IMG/VR virus record: IMGVR_UViG_3300020439_000038 | Location: 1 to 33,278 of that record | DNA length: 33,278 bases | DNA from: a virus | Strand: one strand, 5' to 3' | Shown here: positions 2,738 through 33,278 of the stretch, piece by piece | How positions within the stretch are numbered: position 1 is the first letter of the stretch | How the letters are laid out: each line of letters starts with the position of its first letter | The notes under the pieces: generated by a model | Told to the model about the DNA's origin: nothing | Database searches by the model: none | Seen by the model: only the letters and a program-made list of their open reading frames with translations | Position numbers and translations under genes: made by a program

Positions 2738-5700
2738 TGCACCAGTAGAATTCGATCAGGCTAAACTTTTTCAGCAAAATGATCCTATTTTAAATGCGGT
2801 ATTGACAAATATCGCAACATTTGCGGGCGATGTTTCTGGTGGTTTAGGTACGCTAATACAATTTCTTAATATTACAAAAACATTTTTAAGATCTGTTGCA
2901 GATCCAATTGCATTAATTCTCATACCTGCTATTGATCAATTGATAGAGGCGATTGAAGATCTTAAAAACATTGGTTTCGGAACATTAACAGTTTGGCCAT
3001 GGGAATCAGGGCAAGTAGAGTCTGGCATTGATACAACTCAGGCATTACAGGCAATCGAAGCAATGATCGCATCATTGAATGAGATTAATCCTGAAAAATT
3101 AAGATGGAATCCTTCAAAAAATGAATTTGAGACTATTAATGTTATTGGTGATAGGGATCAATTATTTCAACAAACTGGTATAAGTTTTAATTTTAGTGCT
3201 TATGAAAATATAACAATCGAAGATAATGAGGTAATTACAACAAAAAGTCTTGATGACGATTGGGTCAATAACACACTTAACACAATTTATAATTATCTTA
3301 ATCCAAAAGAATGGGAAGATGGTGATGATGCCGCAAAAAGAGTTATCAATTCACTGAATGAATCTTTTAAAATAAGAACACTGACTCCTGCACAGTTTGT
3401 GTCAGAAGTAAATAGTTCTTTTAGTGATTCAAATGATCCAGCAAGACCAGTAGGTTCTGGTGATTATGTAGCATTTGTAGGGTTTTTTGCTTTACCTACG
3501 CATCATGCTTTACGTGATATGATAAACGCTTTGCTAAAATTTTTCACAAATTTTCTTAGAAATATTCCAGATTTACAGGACGATAAGATAACTGAAATAG
3601 AGTTAGGACATCCTCTTGTTATATCTGGTATTGAAAAAGAAATTGATATTGCCATGGGCGAGGCAACTGTTCAAGTGGATAATGAGTTATTAAATTTATC
3701 TAATGAAATATCTGAAAATATAGTTGATTCAGGAATAGCAGACGATGCGACACAAGAAGCAAGTAGATTAAAAGGTATTATAGATGATGCAAAATTAAAA
3801 TTTCAAGAATATGGTTCTGAAATATCAAATTATAGTAGTAGAATACTCGAATTACAACAAGAACTTTTATCAACACCTGATGCAATTAGTGTAGAGCAAG
3901 AAATAGCGAGATTGTCTGGTTTAAAGACAACGGCCCAAAAAAACTATAGAGAGCAATTTATTATACAACAAGAATTTGGAAGAAAATATACTCAAGAAAT
4001 TGCTAGAAGTCAAAATTTAAAAGAAGCATATAACACATCATTAGAAAAGGCATCTCAATTAGAAGCAAAAAGAAATGCTTTAGAAAAAAGAAAAGAAAAT
4101 ATTTCATTAGATAACACGACATTAAAAAAGAAATATTATACGTTAGACGAAACTTCTAAACGTGATCTTTCTGCTATTACTGAACAAAAAATATTTACTC
4201 CAAAAAATAACAAACACAATGGTGTTACTATACCATTTTTTGAACCTGGACAAATAATACAACAGGGTCATGTTTTTAATGATTTTACTGCTGAAGTTGT
4301 AAGTCATTCTCAAATTATAGTTCAGGACGGACAGGTTATATCAAATAAGGTTAAAGTTCGAAAAGTAAGAGGTGCAATAAGACCAAGTACAACTTCACCA
4401 CAACAGACAATAAATGTACCACCGATTATTGCTTTAGATGGAAAAAAATTAGATACATTTGGGGTTTTGAAAACCGGTCAAGGTTTATCTGGTGCTAGAG
4501 AATCACTGGAATTTCCTATGTTTGCTCCAGCAAATCCTGATGTGCCGCAGACACAACCTGCAATAAAGTTTAAGGCTTCAATCGTTAGTGGTACAGATAC
4601 ATTATTTACAGTTTTGCCTGTTAATGATGAGGTAATACAATATGGAGAAAGTATAGACATTTATAAAGATGAAAAATCTTTAAACAAACCGTCTTTTCAA
4701 ATGACTATGGAAAATTTTGTTGAAAATTTAACGGTTGGTTCTCCTATTCTTCATAATTTTTTAACGACCGCACCTGTAAGTGAATTTGATATACCTGTAA
4801 ATCCTTTTGATAGATTGAGTTGGTCTGTATTTCCTGGTGTTGGTGTGACTCCGGTAATTAAAAAAGTAAAAATTGGTGGAAAAGATATTGAAAAACAAGA
4901 TATAAAAACGCAATTATTTATTCCGTATGAAAAAAATCCATCATCAAAAACGATTGTATATCGAGAAATGAAAGAGATAACAATTGAAATTGGAAGACTC
5001 ACAAAAACTGGAGATATAGAACCTTATCCAAAAGAAAACATTAAAGTTCCAGATGATGGATCACAGGTCACAGGTGTTCAGACTAATGCAACTTTAGAGA
5101 CACCATTTACACTTATGAAAATAGATGGTGCAAGATCATCAATACCAAATTGGAAATTTACAAGAATACAAGATTTATTTCCAATTTATGGTGAAGTAAT
5201 AGATGCCATTGTAAATAAGTTAGAGTTTGCAAAAGATTTAGCAGGAGGGGCTTTAGAAGATATAAACAAGTGGATCGAATATTTTGAAAAATTAGTCAGA
5301 GATCTTAAACAACTTAATCAAGATATTCAAAATCTTTTACAATTTTTAGCATCAGGTCTAGACAAAGCAGGATTGTACAGTGCAAGTTTTTCAGGAAATG
5401 ATGGTGTTGCAGGTTTTAAGAAAAGACTTTCAGGTGCAAAAATAAAAAATGTAAATTTAGAACCTGTGAAAGAATTTTCTTTAGAGCCTGTATCAGTTAC
5501 TAACAGAAGACAGAATCCTATAACAGGTGCTCAAGAGACAATCACAAGTGAAGTTCTCAAATTGGTAGCAAAAGAAAATCCAGAGTCAGTTGGAGATCAA
5601 TTACTAACCTGGTCTGATTTAGATTCACTAAAATATAGCGGAGGATTTGTTTTTTATGCACAAGGTAATGATACAAAGTTGTTAGAGAAGTTTTTATTAA

Positions 5701-18954: not shown

Positions 18955-21900
18955 ATGCCTAAATTAACTACCGATTTCAACGTATCACCTTATCATGACG
19001 ATTTTGATGAAGCAAAAAAGTTTTTTAAAATCTTATATCGACCCGCATTTTCTGTGCAAGCAAGAGAACTTACACAGATGCAATCTATTCTTCAAAATCA
19101 AATCGAACAATTAGGTGATTATAATTTTTCTGATGGTGATAGGGTATATGGTGGTGAAATTTCTCTCAATACAAAAATAAATTCTCTTAAATTAAAAACA
19201 AATTATTCAGGAACTGAAATAGTTGTATCAAATTTTGAAGGAAGAATAATTGAAGGTAATACGTCTGGAGCAAGAGCAACGGTAGTAAAGGCAGAAAAAT
19301 TTACACAAACAACTCTTAACACATTGATGATTAATTATCTCGATGAAAAGGTTTTTGTAGATGATGAAATTATTCAAACGATAGATACTGGCACAACATA
19401 TTTTGCAAATGTTGCAGGTGAAGCAGAGGGATTAGAAGATGTTACAACATTAACTTCATCGGTTGCCTCAGGAAACGGTTCAATAGTTTCAATTGAAGAG
19501 GGTGTTTTTTATATTGGCGGTTATTTTGTATATGTGTCTCCACAAACGATTGTACTTGAAAAGTACGAAAGTAATCCTACGTATCGTATTGGTCTTTCAA
19601 TAGTAGAAAGTATAATTACAAGCGTTGATGATACGTCTTTATTAGACAATGCTTTAGGTTCTCCAAACTATACTGCACCTGGAGCAAATAGATATAAAAT
19701 TGATCTCACATTAACTGCTAAAAATATTTTTCAAACAGGCACTCCAATAGTATCTTCAGGTTTGACTTTTACCGCATCATCAAACACTGCAACAGTCACT
19801 ACATCTACTGATCACAATTTAGAAGATGGTGCAATTGTTGTAGTATCAGGTGCAAATCAATCTGAATATAATGGTAGATTTCCAATTGCAAATGTAACCA
19901 GCGGAACAACTTTTACATATTTTGTTTCAGGAAAACCAGCAACACCTGCAACAGGATCACCACAATATTCTCAGGTAATTACAAATCCATTAGAGGCACG
20001 ATCGGATGTTGATTTTATTGAATTACTTAGAGTAGAAAGTGGTATTGTAACAAAAGAGATTGTTAATCCATTATATGGTGCTATTGGTGACGTACTTGCA
20101 AGAAGAACATTTGATCAATCAGGAGACTTCACTGTAAAGCCATTTACGATTGCATTTGAAACACATAAGATTGCAGGCGTTGCCTCGACAAGAACGAGTG
20201 CTAATGCATGTACAAACTTCACAGGTTCTGGTACAGGTTTTGTTTCGCAATTGACCGATGGAGATGTCATTTTTCTTTCTGGAAATACTAACAAAACTGC
20301 TACAATATCAACGATTGCAAATAATACAACTCTAACATTATCTTCAGGAACGTCATTAGGTGACGGAACAGAGAATCAAAAAATAGGTGTTGATACTAAA
20401 GTAACCGCCGCATTGAGTCCTGGTAAAGCGTATGTTAAAGGATATGAATATGAAACAGTTACTACATCATTTATCGACATTGATAAAGGTAGAGATACAA
20501 GAACTGTTTCTGGTGAGCAACAAGGTATGGACTTTGGACCATTCTTAAAAGTTACCGATGTTCATGCAATGACAGGTTTTGATCTTAGTGTAGATTTAGC
20601 ATCAATAGGTACTGGAACAGGTGCGGCCGGATTAGATTTGATAGAACTTCATTGTGTAAAATGGCCTACAGATTATTTCATTGGTGGAACAACTGATCCT
20701 GATAGACCCACTATAAAAGCAGATGAGGCAACCGCAAGTACGAATAATAATATTGATTTTATTGCCATTAATCCAAACGATACTGCAAACACAAAGATAG
20801 GCACTGCAAGAATTAGACAATTAGATTTTAGAGCAGGTAGAAGTAGCACTATTGATAGTTTGTATTATAATTCAGTTCCAGCCGCTGGTACTGAAGCAAA
20901 TACCTATCATAGACTATACCCCGCAATTTATGATGCACATTTATTTGATTTTAGATTTGAAAAAGTAAGCGGAACAGTAGCCGCCGCAAATGCAAATACA
21001 TCAATAGTAAGATTGGCGGCTTCATTAGGTGGAGGAGGTTCTCAACCCACGAAATTATTTCCTACTGCAAACACATTATATGGCGTTGAAGTCACAGTAA
21101 ATACATCTTTTCTTGGTGTCACAACATCAGACACAAGAAAGATTGTGGAATGGACTGGAAATGAAACTGTTTTTACACCATCAACTACATACACTGCCGT
21201 ATTAGACAGTCCTTTATCACAACCAACTACGGCAACATCGACATATAGTTTAGATTTTAGTATAAAAAATGTAAGATCGGGTGTTAAGGTCGATGCTTCT
21301 CAATCAGATGCAAATAACAAAATATCTGATGGTTTTAACGTTGATCCAAGCGGAAAACTTGGTGGTGTTGAAACAGGTGAAACTATACTTTTTAAAGCGA
21401 ATGATGATGAAAGAACATTAATTTTTCCATTGCAGAATTCTACTGTAGCAAATTTAAATCCTACAGGATCAAGTTCTACAACATATAGATTCAAAAGAAC
21501 GTTTAGTGTAACTTTAAATTCAACTTCAGGCGGTACCGCCACTGCACCATCTGGTGAGGCTTTTTATCCTGCTACTACAAAAACACTTTCTGAATCGGAA
21601 GCAGATGCAAATTATATAGTAACTGCTACGGCAGGAACAAATCAAGGTAGGGTCATAGAATTCTCTAATACTTCTGGATCGACTTTACATGCAGGTTCAT
21701 CTTATACAAGAGCAATAGAACTTGAAAATAATGGTGGTACTTTAGTTGTAAAAGCAAGATCGGATGCAACTGGAGCACCTGATTTTGCATCACACACTGT
21801 TCAAGTAATTGCTACTATGCAACGTGCAAATGCTACCAATAGTGGTGCAGGTTCTCAAATTTCTAAGAAAACAATTGTCACAGGAAATACCACAGTTGCA

Positions 21901-28950: not shown

Positions 28951-29810
28951 TGACCACAAGCGTATATTTCAATCATTTTGAAAACACACCAGAACAAAAT
29001 CTACATCAAGATCTCATCATAGAAGCAATAAAAAACTATGGTATAGACGTTTATTATTTACCTAGAAAATATGTAAATGAAGATTTACTATATGGTGAAG
29101 ATACTATATCAGAATTCAATCAAGCACATTTAATAGAGATGTATGTTAAATCTGTTGATGGGTTTGAGGGTGAAGGTGATTTTGTATCTAGGTTCGGATT
29201 AGAAATACGTGATCAAGTTGTATTCTCAGTAGCAAGAAGACGTTTTGATAACCTAGACATCACAGAACAAGACAGACCTTTAGAGGGTGATGTAATATTT
29301 TTTCCATTAAACAAAAAACTATATGAAATAAGATTCGTAGAACACGAATCAATGTTTTATCAATTTGGTAAATTACCTATCTTTGATTTAACATGCGAAT
29401 TGTTTCAATACGATGATCAGAGAATTGATACTGGTGTTGAAGATATAGATGAAATTGAAGATACGTTAGCATATTCTATAAATCTATCTATGGGTGATGG
29501 ATCTGGAGCGTATGTAGATGATGAAACAGTTTATGTTGGAGATTCTGTAGGTTCAGCAAACACAAAAGCAAGAGTTGTTTCTTGGAATGCTACTGATAAA
29601 ACATTAAAGATTACAGACGTAGTAGGCACTTTTGGAGCCACATCAAATATTGTTGGTGATACAAGTGGTGCATATTATAGTCTAAGCACAACACCAGATA
29701 CTAGAGTTTTTACTAATGATGTATCTGCAAATAATGTTACAATTGAAACTGAAGCAGATTCAATTATAGACTTTTCTGAATCTAATCCATTCAGTGAAAG
29801 TAATTATTAA
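28950..29810 (+). CDS. 14: gp14 neck protein with C-terminal module
   Basis: 286 aa (T4 gp14: 256 aa). It matches gp14 of marine T4-like phages: YFNHFENTPEQNLHQDLIIE, GIDVYYLPRKYVNEDLLYGE, FNQAHLIEMYVKSVDGFEGE, FVSRFGLEIRDQVVFSVARR, PLEGDVIFFPLNKKLYEIRF and FGKLPIFDLTCELFQYDDQR. It works with gp13 as the neck platform between head and tail. Residues about 187-247 form a TSG-type module (VYVGDSVGSANTKARVVSWN, then FGATSNIVGDTSGAYYSLS) before the acidic/aromatic end ESNPFSESNY. The start overlaps the gp13 stop. The stop overlaps the 3' end of a convergent minus-strand gene by 3 nt. Confidence 0.9.
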   Translation: MTTSVYFNHFENTPEQNLHQDLIIEAIKNYGIDVYYLPRKYVNEDLLYGEDTISEFNQAHLIEMYVKSVDGFEGEGDFVSRFGLEIRDQVVFSVARRRFDNLDITEQDRPLEGDVIFFPLNKKLYEIRFVEHESMFYQFGKLPIFDLTCELFQYDDQRIDTGVEDIDEIEDTLAYSINLSMGDGSGAYVDDETVYVGDSVGSANTKARVVSWNATDKTLKITDVVGTFGATSNIVGDTSGAYYSLSTTPDTRVFTNDVSANNVTIETEADSIIDFSESNPFSESNY

Positions 29811-30151
29811 GTTACTCCAGGTGATAGAGTAATGATACCCTCCGCAATTCTTTCGACTTCTACCGTGTCGTGTGTCCATTCAATATCATAATAATAACGA
29901 CCATGTGCCATAGAAGCAGTTTGAGTAGCGGTTGCTGAAATAGTAACGTTTGATCCTGACGTAGAAGTTGTGAAATCTAATCTTAATGATGTATTTGATG
30001 TGTCATAAGATTTTTGCATTCTAGCGGCAATCGAACCAGCAGTTATTGTAACGTTTGCATTATTTGCGTTTTTTGCAGTAAATGTTTTTGAGAAGGTACA
30101 ACCCTGATCAATTTCAAAATTAATACCTTGTTTTTTTATAGATAAGGCCAT
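29807..30151 (-). CDS. Lone minus-strand small beta-rich protein
   Basis: 114 aa on the opposite strand to every other gene here, between gp14 and gp15. The sequence reads like the small Ig-like phage tail proteins of BppU-N type: an opening FEIDQGCTFSKTFTAKN, a central IAARMQKSYD, and an ending HGRYYYDIEWTHDTVEVERI then EGIITLSPGVT. No signal peptide or membrane segment is seen. It has its own late-promoter-like box 5 nt upstream (30157-30164, minus) and no Shine-Dalgarno. Its 3' end overlaps the gp14 stop by 3 nt. A virion or tail-decoration role is suggested by the fold pattern and the late box. The function is unknown. Confidence 0.72.
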   Translation of the reverse strand: MALSIKKQGINFEIDQGCTFSKTFTAKNANNANVTITAGSIAARMQKSYDTSNTSLRLDFTTSTSGSNVTISATATQTASMAHGRYYYDIEWTHDTVEVERIAEGIITLSPGVT

Positions 30152-30156
30152 ACAAC

Positions 30157-30164
30157 TATTTATA
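30157..30164 (-). promoter_or_regulatory. T4-type late promoter box (TATAAATA) for the minus-strand gene
   Basis: Perfect TATAAATA on the minus strand, ending 5 nt before the start codon at 30151. It overlaps the plus-strand box at 30161-30168 by 4 bp. Confidence 0.68.
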
Positions 30165-30168
30165 AATA
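30161..30168 (+). promoter_or_regulatory. T4-type late promoter box (TATAAATA) before gp15
   Basis: Perfect TATAAATA ending 8 nt before the gp15 ATG (30177) in a 25-bp divergent intergenic region. No Shine-Dalgarno is present. Confidence 0.68.
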
Positions 30169-30176
30169 TATTTACT

Positions 30177-31106
30177 ATGCTAGGACAAACTTTTTATCAT
30201 CAAACAATCAGAAAATATGTAGTTCTTTTTGGAACTTTATTTAATGATTTAAATATCGAGAAGAAAGATTCTTCCGGTAATGTAGTTTCTCGACAAAAAG
30301 TTCCCATAGCATATGGACCAAAACAAAAATTTCTTACACGAATAAGACAAGATCCAAATATTGACAGACAAGTTGCCATACAATTACCACGTATGGGATT
30401 TGAGATGACATCTCTTACATATGATCCTATAAGAAAATTAAATTCTGTTGGTAAAATTATTGGAAGACCTGCAAATACTGAGGGTAGAAACACACTTAGA
30501 AAAATGTTTAATCCTGTGCCTTATAATATGGATTTTCAATTGTTTGTTTTCGTTGATAATGCTGAAGACGGTACTCAAATACTAGAACAAATTTTACCCT
30601 TCTTTACTCCTGAGTTTAACGTGACGATAAATGCAGTTTCAGAATTAGGAATAAAATTAGATGTTCCAATATCATTTAACTCTGCATCATTAGAGGATAC
30701 ATTTGATGGTGAATTTACTGCACGTAGAACATTAATATGGACTCTTGACTTTTTTATGAAAGGATTTTTATATCCAGATATTAAAGGTGGTGGTAAAATT
30801 ATTAAAAGTGTTCAAGTTGATTTTCATGAGTTTGATGGTCTTGGTGACAACATACCTGATTTGGATAGAATGAGATTAGAATCTAGCACAATATCTGCAT
30901 CTGATTTCTTATCATTAGAAGACGGTGATGAATTTATTTTAGAAACAGGAGGTGTTCAGGGTGATTCGATTAGTAGAATATCTATAACACCAGTTGGCGG
31001 TAAAGATGTAGATGTAGATCCAAAAGGCGATTTTGATGCTAATACCACTATTACAATTTTTAATCCTGCAGTTGATAGTGACCCAGAAACTGGAATAGAC
31101 TCATGA
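30177..31106 (+). CDS. 15: gp15 tail terminator / tail completion protein
   Basis: 309 aa (T4 gp15: 272 aa). It matches gp15 of T4-like phages: MLGQTFYHQTIRKYVVLFGT, LFNDLNI, KVPIAYGPKQKFLTRIRQDP, QLPRMGFEMTSLTYDPIRKL, YNMDFQLFVFVDNAEDGTQI and ILPFFTPEFNVTIN, with ARRTLIWTLDFFMKGFLYPD near residue 190. The protein caps the tube and sheath and joins the tail to the neck. The C-terminal region from about residue 231 is an extension with SDFLSLEDGDEFILETGG, a micro-repeat otherwise seen in gp7. It overlaps gp16 by ATGA. The late-type box in front suggests a separate transcript. Confidence 0.92.
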   Translation: MLGQTFYHQTIRKYVVLFGTLFNDLNIEKKDSSGNVVSRQKVPIAYGPKQKFLTRIRQDPNIDRQVAIQLPRMGFEMTSLTYDPIRKLNSVGKIIGRPANTEGRNTLRKMFNPVPYNMDFQLFVFVDNAEDGTQILEQILPFFTPEFNVTINAVSELGIKLDVPISFNSASLEDTFDGEFTARRTLIWTLDFFMKGFLYPDIKGGGKIIKSVQVDFHEFDGLGDNIPDLDRMRLESSTISASDFLSLEDGDEFILETGGVQGDSISRISITPVGGKDVDVDPKGDFDANTTITIFNPAVDSDPETGIDS

Positions 31107-31516
31107 GTAGTGCATTTGATGATTTAGATAAAATATTAAACGTTGCAGAAAATGCGGTTATTGAAAGAGAAAAACCGCCAAAGATTGAACCTCGTAAAAG
31201 TGATGATGAATTAGATACAGATTATCAATATGCGAGAGAAAATTATTACAATGTAATTGAGCGTGGTCATGATGCACTAGATGAATTATTAATGGAAGCA
31301 AAAGAGAATGGTAACGCACGTATGTACGAAGTTGTAGGACAACTCATAAAAGTTATTGGTGATCAAAATCAAAATCTTCTCGGCCTTCATCAGCAAGTAA
31401 AAAACATCACAAAAGAAGTCAAGAACGTTCCTGAGAAAGTTACAAATGCTTTATTTGTTGGTAGTACGGCAGAGTTGCAAAAACTTCTGAAGGGTAAGAA
31501 GAATGAAGACGTTTAA
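31103..31516 (+). CDS. 16: gp16 small terminase subunit
   Basis: 137 aa (T4 gp16: 164 aa). Charged and helical: an acidic N-terminus (SAFDDLDKILNVAENAVIER), a linker DDELDTDYQYARENYYNVIE, and a central coiled-coil helix (HDALDELLMEAKENGNARMY, EVVGQLIKVIGDQNQNLLGL). The C-terminus is short and basic (LQKLLKGKKNED). This matches the marine T4-like gp16 pattern, in which the helical centre forms a ring that regulates the packaging motor gp17. The start overlaps the gp15 stop as ATGA and the 3' end overlaps the next gene by 14 nt. Unusually, gp17 does not follow directly: two further genes intervene. Confidence 0.87.
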   Translation: MSSAFDDLDKILNVAENAVIEREKPPKIEPRKSDDELDTDYQYARENYYNVIERGHDALDELLMEAKENGNARMYEVVGQLIKVIGDQNQNLLGLHQQVKNITKEVKNVPEKVTNALFVGSTAELQKLLKGKKNEDV

Positions 31517-32432
31517 ATCATTCATTATAGAAAGAACGGTATCAAGGCAGAGTAGTTTATCTTCTTTGTTGTTTAGTTTTAAACGACATTCAGTTGATGA
31601 TGTGGTGATACCATTAGGTTCTTCAATAATTGAAAGATTGTGGCCCGATAAAATACGTTCCAAGGCATTTCATCTTACCGATGAGTCTGGTGTAGAACAA
31701 TTAAAAAAAATACAAGGATCAAAAAAAGCAATATCTGCATTTTTTAATATGGATAGTTATTTTTTAGAGGCAGGTATTCGGACAGATGGTGGTTTTGTTG
31801 CTGAATTAACAGGTGACATTCTTGTGGCTGGACCAGATGACCTTAATACTGAAGTAGATAATTCTGGTAGAAGATACATGACGTTTCAAACACTTAGACA
31901 AGGTTCCGAGGGTGGAGGATTGGGTGGTGGTGCAAAATTAGGAGGTATGAGAAGAGATTTATTTAATATGTTTAAAAGACTTGTTGATGAGTATGATGAA
32001 TGGATAGAACCAGATTCTATATTGGGTAGTGTGAAAGAAATTAAGAAAGATCCATTCTTTGCATGGGAGATGATAGGTACTAATATTAAAGCCGCATCAC
32101 GCAGAACACAAAGTTTCGTATTTAATATGGCCATCAAAGATTATCTTGATGAAATGGAGAAAGTGATGAGAAAAAACTCCAAAGTTTTGAAATTATTATT
32201 TTATGATTATGCTATGAACAAAACATTTAGATACGAAAAAGACAAAGACCAATCACAATGGGATGAAATAGTGGTAAATAATTTTGTAGTTGATAAAATA
32301 CATGTTACTCCTGCATATTCTCAATGGTATGAGGATGACGAAACCATTGAGGGTTTTTCAATTATGCGATGGGATGATATATGGAACTTAGAACGATATA
32401 TTCAAAAGACAACTAAGATAAAAAATGTTTAA
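31503..32432 (+). CDS. Predicted head-internal protein with T4-like capsid-targeting N-terminus; possible ADP-ribosyltransferase-like
   Basis: 309 aa. The first residues MKTFKSFIIER closely resemble the T4 capsid-targeting sequence (MKTYQEFIAEA) of the internal proteins and Alt. The F-I-I-E stretch fits the I/L-x-E cleavage rule of prohead protease gp21, with cleavage after Glu10. Residues about 55-105 (AFHLTDESGVEQLKKIQGSK, KAISAFF, GIRTDGGFVAELTGD) form a conserved-looking core, with a His-x-Thr pattern that could be ADP-ribosyltransferase-like. That part is speculative. Residues 135-150 are very Gly-rich. The C-terminus (IEGFSIMRWDDIWNLERYIQ) is compact. Inserted between the small and large terminase genes. 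If packaged, it would enter the host with the DNA. Alternative: an unknown packaging accessory protein. Confidence 0.6.
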   Translation: MKTFKSFIIERTVSRQSSLSSLLFSFKRHSVDDVVIPLGSSIIERLWPDKIRSKAFHLTDESGVEQLKKIQGSKKAISAFFNMDSYFLEAGIRTDGGFVAELTGDILVAGPDDLNTEVDNSGRRYMTFQTLRQGSEGGGLGGGAKLGGMRRDLFNMFKRLVDEYDEWIEPDSILGSVKEIKKDPFFAWEMIGTNIKAASRRTQSFVFNMAIKDYLDEMEKVMRKNSKVLKLLFYDYAMNKTFRYEKDKDQSQWDEIVVNNFVVDKIHVTPAYSQWYEDDETIEGFSIMRWDDIWNLERYIQKTTKIKNV

Positions 32433-32451: not shown

Positions 32452-33204
32452 ATGACCGCACAAAAAGGTTTTGTTTATGAGCAAAATGTGGCAAAATATT
32501 TAAAACCTATCGGTCTTGTTCCATCAAATTTTACTCCTGCTGGTTCAGGTAGTGATCAACCTGATCTCATGTTAGAATATAAAGACAAAAAAGCGGGTTG
32601 CGAATTAAAAATAACAGATGCTTCTGCTGGTTCTCTAGTTCTAAAATATAATCCAAAAGACAAAAAATGGGGTTTCGGCATAATTAAAGAAAGCGAAAAG
32701 GAAAAACTTTTTATTAAAGAGTTGGCAGATTTCGTTAATTTATTTGATAATATAAATGACTCGTGGAAAGATACTCCATATAAAGTTGATAAAGCATTTC
32801 AAGATGATAAATGGAAAGCGACCGCAGGTAAATTATCAAATAGAGAACGGTATGAGAGAGACCTTAAATTATTTCCTGATGTAAAAGGAGAGATACCAGC
32901 AACAAAAATTGAAGAATATTATGGTAAAAAATCTACATATTATGTTAATATAGGCACTCATGGTTTTTATTTGTTTGGTAGAAACAATCCTTTTGATCTA
33001 AAAAATGTGCCTATGTTCAGTCAAAACGCAACCGCAGGCTACAGAGCAAGGGTACAATATAAAGGTGGTGGTAATTATCAATTCACATTTGAAATGAATT
33101 TTAAAATGAGAAAAAAGTCTCAATACAATATAGGTGCCTGCACAAAAGCAAGTGTAATAATTGTAAAAAATAACGTAGATTTATCCTGTTTTCCGGAGTT
33201 GTAA
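32452..33204 (+). CDS. PD-(D/E)XK nuclease-like protein
   Basis: 250 aa. A textbook PD-(D/E)XK signature is visible: an early helix with Glu10 (GFVYEQNVAKYL), then SGSDQPDLMLEY carrying Pro37-Asp38, then 12 residues later GCELK carrying Glu51-x-Lys53. These would be the metal-binding and catalytic residues of a restriction-endonuclease fold. The C-terminal half is beta-rich and basic (YRARVQYKGGGNYQFTFEMN, KMRKKSQYNIG) and may bind DNA. No HNH or GIY-YIG motif is seen. It lies between gp16 and gp17 and overlaps the gp17 start (TAATG). Possible roles are host or rival DNA degradation, packaging-linked cleavage, or a free-standing homing-type nuclease. None is proven. Confidence 0.7.
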   Translation: MTAQKGFVYEQNVAKYLKPIGLVPSNFTPAGSGSDQPDLMLEYKDKKAGCELKITDASAGSLVLKYNPKDKKWGFGIIKESEKEKLFIKELADFVNLFDNINDSWKDTPYKVDKAFQDDKWKATAGKLSNRERYERDLKLFPDVKGEIPATKIEEYYGKKSTYYVNIGTHGFYLFGRNNPFDLKNVPMFSQNATAGYRARVQYKGGGNYQFTFEMNFKMRKKSQYNIGACTKASVIIVKNNVDLSCFPEL

Positions 33205-33278
33205 TGGCAGGTGAAATATACTTAGGAAATCCTCTACTCAAAGCCGCCAACGTGGCCATGGAGTATGACGAGGAAACG
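33204..33278 (+). CDS. 17: gp17 large terminase subunit, first 25 codons only
   Basis: The ATG at 33204 overlaps the preceding stop (TAATG) and the frame stays open to the window edge. The visible residues MAGEIYLGNPLLKAANVAME, then YDEET, resemble the start of gp17 in marine T4-like phages, where a YLGNxxLK phrase precedes the ATPase domain. The Walker motifs and nuclease domain lie beyond the window. Identity rests on this short stretch and on its place downstream of gp16. Confidence 0.72.
   Translation, partial: MAGEIYLGNPLLKAANVAMEYDEET

Follow-up and report, generated by a model that had tools for sequence, protein, structure and literature searches.

Does a gene lying beside the terminase genes of a T4-like virus encode a protein that is packed into the head and delivered to the host? 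The question is raised by an open reading frame of 309 codons in IMG/VR virus record IMGVR_UViG_3300020439_000038, for which a sequence-only reading had proposed such a role on the basis of its N-terminus, MKTFKSFIIER. Host defenses encounter injected head proteins before any other phage product, and only a handful of such proteins are known in T4. We analyzed positions 1 to 33,278 of the record (33,278 nucleotides, here called the window) together with related viral sequences. In our view, the product of the gene is likely a cargo protein that a marine T4-like phage packs into its head and delivers to the host. Packaging and cleavage of the 309-aa protein are highly probable from sequence comparison, and its delivery to and activity in the host, argued by analogy, are fairly probable.

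The gene in the terminase region

Overall, the window corresponds to the baseplate–neck–terminase part of a T4-like phage, and its gp6 was nearest to those of the Pelagibacter phages Mosig and HTVC008M and the Methylophilales phage Melnitz (37–39% identity). The 309-aa gene begins with ATG, and its start overlaps the 3' end of gp16 by 14 nt. The features discussed below are as follows:

30161–30168, plus strand: TATAAATA, a T4-type late promoter-like element before gp15-gp16-cargo-gp17 (exact match; putative function)
31103–31516, plus strand: gp16, terminase small subunit (phrog_445, E 1.7e-36; PF11053)
31503–32432, plus strand: putative capsid-tagged cargo protein of 309 aa, unnamed family (open reading frame; homologs in about 96 loci)
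31503–31532, plus strand: predicted capsid-targeting leader MKTFKSFIIE, 10 codons (conserved leader followed by a variable linker; the matrix recovers T4 IPI–III; residues 1–14 disordered in the model)
31533–31550, plus strand: unconserved linker from leader to folded body, residues 11–16 (length and sequence differ among homologs)
31656–31742, plus strand: most conserved core, residues 52–80 (R52, F56, H57, K74, S78 and F80 invariant; strand 51–59, helix 61–70, strand 77–80)
32259–32306, plus strand: C-terminal conserved strand, residues 253–268, WDEIVVNNFVVDKIHV (D254 and E255 invariant)
32452–33204, plus strand: untagged gene of 250 aa with a PD-(D/E)XK-like motif, seen by eye (phrog_26930, E 1.9e-16; relatives in P-SSM2, S-H25 and P-TIM40 are cyanophage hypothetical proteins)
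33204–33278, plus strand: beginning of gp17, terminase large subunit, truncated at the end of the window (N-terminus MAGEIYLGNPLLKAANVAMEYDEE)

The MAGEIYLGNPLLKAANVAMEYDEE start at 33204 is the same as that of gp17 in loci L001 and L005, where gp17 was assigned by phrog_2/5989. The description of the gene as lying between the terminase genes was correct in that gp16 precedes and gp17 follows it, but the gene is not alone there, the 250-aa gene occupying the same gap. This neighbor returned no relatives when used as a query against viral contigs. Its cyanophage relatives (P-SSM2, S-H25, P-TIM40) lie a few genes from a T4-GC190-type cytidylyltransferase, which carries the tag in P-SSM2 and S-H25.

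Exact matches to TATAAATA numbered only two in the window, against a chance expectation of 5.4, and transcription of the cargo gene would go with that of the late packaging genes. An opposed, overlapping pair of TATAAATA elements occupies 30157–30168, as if two late promoters stood back to back, flanked by a leftward gene (29807–30151; phrog_1084/phrog_3304) and gp15.

In T4, the gp16 and gp17 genes overlap, with nothing between them. In marine relatives, the gp16–gp17 gap is an insertion hotspot: it holds a dioxygenase and a tryptophan halogenase in HTVC008M, plastocyanin, oxidase and carbon-metabolism genes in S-SM1, two tagged genes in L001, and four genes in a row with tag-like starts in L005–L007. 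The row in L005 (3282–5964, with equivalents in L006 and L007) encodes proteins starting MKTYKEFIKE (83 aa), MRTFKEQMMW (330 aa), MKTFKEYWDS (162 aa, phrog_6437) and MLKSFKSFISE (309 aa), the 330-aa protein being a paralog of the window's 309-aa protein (31% identical). In L001, a tagged 399-aa protein (1144–2343, MKTFKSYLNE) and an untagged 423-aa protein (3272–4543), which are distant paralogs (25% identity, E 3e-9), flank the homolog. Confinement of the 309-aa family to this gap was considered and rejected; in contig G009 the homologs lie in another island, and the two terminase genes are almost next to each other.

The N-terminal leader

The leader MKTFKSFIIE fits the T4-type pattern, with F4, F7, I8 and E10 at the positions where the pattern has aromatic residues (4 and 7) and L/I-x-E (8–10). 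In the T4 tag, residues 4 and 7 matter most for targeting and residues 8 and 10 for processing (PMC9026906), and these mapped positions are the conserved positions of the marine leaders. Homologs were collected with patterns from the body only (ISAFF[NE]M, WDEIVV and others), the tag not being used, and the search reached homologs below 30% identity. The strict tag was present in 69 of the 77 distinct proteins that the first search yielded and in 127 of the 154 distinct homologs with a complete N-terminus in the extended set. The other leaders were mostly near-variants (e.g., MKSFVQHLKE, MKSYLDLLLTE), and homologs with a degenerate leader, the kind that would have spoken against the proposal according to the sequence-only reading, amounted to only about 10 of the 154 (MRTFKEQMMW, MLTLKEYAV, MKTLLEYSV, MFQTFV). 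Where Glu10 was absent, a shifted L-x-E was frequent (MKSFQQHLKQHLKE, MKSFKGYLKNSQAQLLPE). Among the 113 tag-matching leaders without an inserted second residue, F4 was kept in 111, Y/F7 in 108, L/I/V8 in 110 and E10 in 105. Close IMG/VR relatives (80–86%) whose surroundings were examined kept both the leader and the gp16–gp17 position.

Across the homologs, the conserved leader is followed by a stretch of variable length and sequence and then by the conserved body. In the AlphaFold model built with 52 sequences, residues 1–14 formed the only long stretch below pLDDT 50. Judged from alignment and model, this layout of leader, variable linker and conserved body is the one to be expected if the leader serves targeting and is then removed, and a gp21-type cut is predicted after Glu10 (Ile8-Ile9-Glu10 / Arg11).

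The capsid-targeting sequence was originally defined on T4 IPI, IPII and IPIII. We trained a 10-residue weight matrix on the marine family leaders only and scored every T4 start codon opening a frame of at least 35 codons. The top four of these 3,402 candidates were gp61.1, IPIII, IPII and IPI, so that the likeness of MKTFKSFIIER to the T4 tag, noted in the sequence-only reading, goes beyond chance, with the three internal proteins ranked second to fourth. The top-scoring gp61.1 (AF158101, complement of 18966–19130; locus L191) is a 54-aa product encoded beside gene 61.2 that starts MKTFKEFIKE/D and scores 20.8, far above IPI–III; from its sequence, it is possibly a further, unrecognized tagged internal protein of T4. 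A literature search for the tag peptide MKTFKEF found no papers.

The processing machinery was sought in relatives, the window being a fragment without the gp21–gp23 region. Three homologue-bearing contigs (G001, G003 and G009) encode both the gp21 protease (S77) and gp23, and each gp23 has L/M-x-E at the aligned T4 maturation cut (LQE/A, LAE/S and MTE/A). Capsid targeting and gp21-type processing, as originally proposed, are thus strongly supported by comparison, through the conservation of the leader, the matrix, gp21 and the gp23 site. The leader itself, its conservation and portability, the presence of gp21 and the gp23 site in relatives and the late-operon position are all well supported by sequence analysis. 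From these we infer that the 309-aa protein would be present in virions, cut at Glu10, ejected and enzymatically active.

When the marine matrix was applied to cyanophage S-SM1, the highest score among 3,984 candidate starts went to the one annotated for the cytidylyltransferase T4-GC190 (MKKFSAFLNE/A), a protein detected by mass spectrometry in purified S-SM1 virions (Sullivan et al., PMC3037559). By itself this agreement is of modest weight, as 41 virion proteins are found among about 230 genes and the score of 6.3 compares with 5.6 for the best non-annotated frames. The P-SSM2 member of T4-GC190 starts MKSFSQFLTE. T4-GC190, detected in purified virions (PMC3037559), thus shares with the 309-aa protein the same kind of leader in a marine T4-like phage, whereas it is an unrelated enzyme and a core gene in cyanophages, the gene studied here being sporadic cargo.

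The likeness to T4 IPI, IPII and IPIII extends to a leader of 10 residues that follows the same pattern (MKTYQEFIAE, MKTFKEF...) with an L/I-x-E cut site, accessory and variable bodies, and a phage-encoded gp21 (here in relatives). The bodies are unrelated, however, and the predicted protein is much larger, with 309 aa against about 95–193 aa for the internal proteins; its gene is placed among the late packaging genes, between gp16 and gp17, whereas those of T4 lie at the ip loci. On sequence grounds, we regard the 309-aa protein as a new, unnamed family of a kind that is already known, T4-type head-packaged cargo.

The body of the protein and the transferase question

The segments AFHLTDESG, VEQLKKI and QGSKKAISAF, singled out in the sequence-only reading as a possibly transferase-like core, are indeed the most conserved part of the family, with R52, F56, H57, K74, S78 and F80 invariant in 52 sequences. 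Over the whole body, eight charged or polar residues (R52, H57, S78, E101, D119, R124, D254 and E255) were invariant in these 52 sequences, which are 26–87% identical, and they suggest an enzyme. The structure model made with the 52 sequences reached pLDDT 86.5 and pTM 0.84 and replaced an earlier model from four sequences that was too poor to use (pLDDT 53). In the model, about half of the body is helical, and the strands follow in the order 51–59, 77–80, 98–110 and 255–268.

A more specific form of the head-packaged cargo explanation likens the 309-aa protein to T4 Alt: it would be an ADP-ribosyltransferase packed into the head, the marine equivalent of Alt, and would modify proteins of the host upon entry. 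Its catalytic residues would be H57 on strand 1, S78 on strand 2 and E255 on a late strand, with a helical bundle (128–239) inserted. The invariant residues in 52 divergent sequences suggest an active site, and the order of H57, S78 and E255 is compatible with the ADP-ribosyltransferase triad (R/H, S/Y, E), order alone being compared; the strand order likewise resembles the ADP-ribosyltransferase plan. A TreTu ADP-ribosyltransferase occupied ranks 1 and 3 of the Foldseek search of the PDB, although at non-significant values (E 1.2–2.5, probability 0.07–0.08). In addition, an independent tagged phage protein in L159 is a clear ADP-ribosyltransferase (PF18760, E 9.7e-24), and, according to one survey, the context of about 44% of the ADP-ribosyltransferases in phages points to packaging in the head (PMC9503650).

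Against this assignment, the 309-aa protein and its 51 homologs gave only chance-level matches in Pfam, PHROGs, NCBIfam and PADLOC, and none of the 52 members had a significant match in the PDB by sequence. Full-profile matches to apolipoprotein in the PDB were rejected, as they cover the helical region and seem to reflect composition. A spliced core profile found nothing in the PDB, and when the family profile was compared with that of a tagged YHGT-type family, only the leader aligned. Structure prediction followed by Foldseek, the check that had been suggested for an ADP-ribosyltransferase fold, produced no significant match in the PDB (best E 1.2, probability 0.08); against viral models there was likewise no significant match and no ADP-ribosyltransferase. 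The transferase-like core thus stood as far as the order of the H57, S78 and E255 strands, and the database, profile and fold searches did not bear it out. An ADP-ribosyltransferase-like domain is a tentative assignment from sequence and model, and the Alt-like role is equally tentative. With Alt, the 309-aa protein would share the principle of an enzyme that travels in the head and goes to work as soon as it enters the host, after removal of its leader by gp21; Alt differs in its leader (MELITELFDE), and between the two bodies we found neither sequence similarity nor a significant fold match. A tblastn search of INPHARED with the 309-aa protein and the 330-aa paralog gave no match among annotated phage isolates.

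Tagged gene islands and proposed delivery to the host

We sampled the spread of the tag by searching the viral collection with a degenerate DNA pattern for MKTFKx(F/Y)xxE. In this pattern-based sample, at least 109 complete open reading frames of at least 60 aa fell into at least 55 clusters with unrelated mature parts, a measure of the portability of the leader. Among the matches listed, recognizable domains of the tagged bodies included ADP-ribosyltransferase (polyvalent class), HicA, HD, S-adenosylmethionine lyase, plasmid fertility inhibition factor, GNAT, cytidylyltransferase, poly(A) polymerase and 5'-nucleotidase. The tagged proteins with a HicA toxin domain (L112, 12007–12630), an HD domain (L125, 1226–1783, minus strand) and a polyvalent-type ADP-ribosyltransferase domain (L159, 6037–6813) are candidates for injected effectors.

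Tagged genes were clustered. In G009 (134.5 kb), all nine lay within one stretch comprising 28 of the 217 gene calls (p 2.8e-9), and in G003 seven of eight lay in one island of 12 of the 91 genes (p 7e-7), both p-values being optimistic because the island bounds were set after the data had been seen. In G001, three of five were in the gp16–gp17 gap. On the same contigs, genes for replication, recombination, the tail and the sheath lacked the tag except for one weak score in G001. Given the untagged replication and tail genes, we rejected the explanation that the tag is simply how marine phage proteins in general begin.

A packaged protein might act in head assembly instead of in the host, as a core or scaffold filler of the kind partly proposed for T4 IPIII; IPIII mutants slow T4 head assembly (PMC9026906), and the half-helical body of the model would suit such a role. 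We consider this improbable for the 309-aa family, which is sporadic, occurs in up to three tandem paralogs and is absent from isolates, unlike core head genes; its invariant charged residues look catalytic, and its companion tagged genes include enzymes and toxin-like domains. That the leader is some other recurrent N-terminal element of accessory genes, such as a translation-friendly or protein-binding start, would account for its occurrence on many unrelated accessory proteins, more than the few known internal proteins of T4, but is very improbable, since the matrix singles out three T4 internal proteins, the conserved positions are those mapped for targeting and cleavage, a tagged cyanophage enzyme is present in virions, and replication and tail genes on the same contigs are untagged.

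Under the favored explanation of a host-delivered head cargo, the protein would be produced together with the packaging genes from a late operon, and its leader would draw it into the prohead core. The phage gp21 protease would cut after Glu10, so that the leader is lost and Arg11 becomes the first residue, and the cargo would be ejected into the host cell along with the DNA. The enzyme-like domain would then act before phage gene expression, probably on host defense or host macromolecules. Delivery and early action are argued from the T4 internal proteins and from the ADP-ribosyltransferase survey (PMC9503650): the T4 protein IPI acts as an inhibitor of a type IV restriction enzyme, and infection of strain ECOR17 requires IPIII (PMC9026906, PMC9391042). 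It had also been proposed that a tagged effector at this locus could be a host-takeover system. The tagged-effector part was right and indeed understated, related phages having rows of tagged genes, and host takeover would be expected by analogy with the roles of the T4 internal proteins.

Of greater interest is the finding that, in marine T4-like phages, entire islands of unrelated proteins carry the tag. We lean slightly toward a broader reading in which the tag is a general delivery system of uncultured marine T4-like phages, the islands hold interchangeable tagged effectors and the 309-aa family is an unrecognized class of effector enzyme. If this is true, islands, one of them between the terminase genes, would carry sometimes tandemly duplicated effectors with transferase, nucleotidyltransferase, toxin-like and anti-defense domains, and each virion would carry a multi-protein payload more varied than that of T4. 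A simple, testable tag would allow many "hypothetical proteins" to be predicted as injected effectors and would offer a route to new anti-defense and host-takeover enzymes.

Polyvalent and MuF-fused injected effectors (PMC5512222, PMC9503650) are comparable in that diverse host-directed domains, ADP-ribosyltransferases prominent among them, are delivered by the virion. Theirs are joined to large polypeptides or head proteins, whereas the tagged marine cargo would consist of separate small proteins, each with a short cleavable tag, apart from two fused versions. In these fusions (L051, 5470–7341, 623 aa; L054, 5473–7248, 591 aa), a 309-family body is joined to another domain (SDLDQVEKYADRLFAA...), which elsewhere forms a separate tagged protein, as at 81274–81660 of G009.
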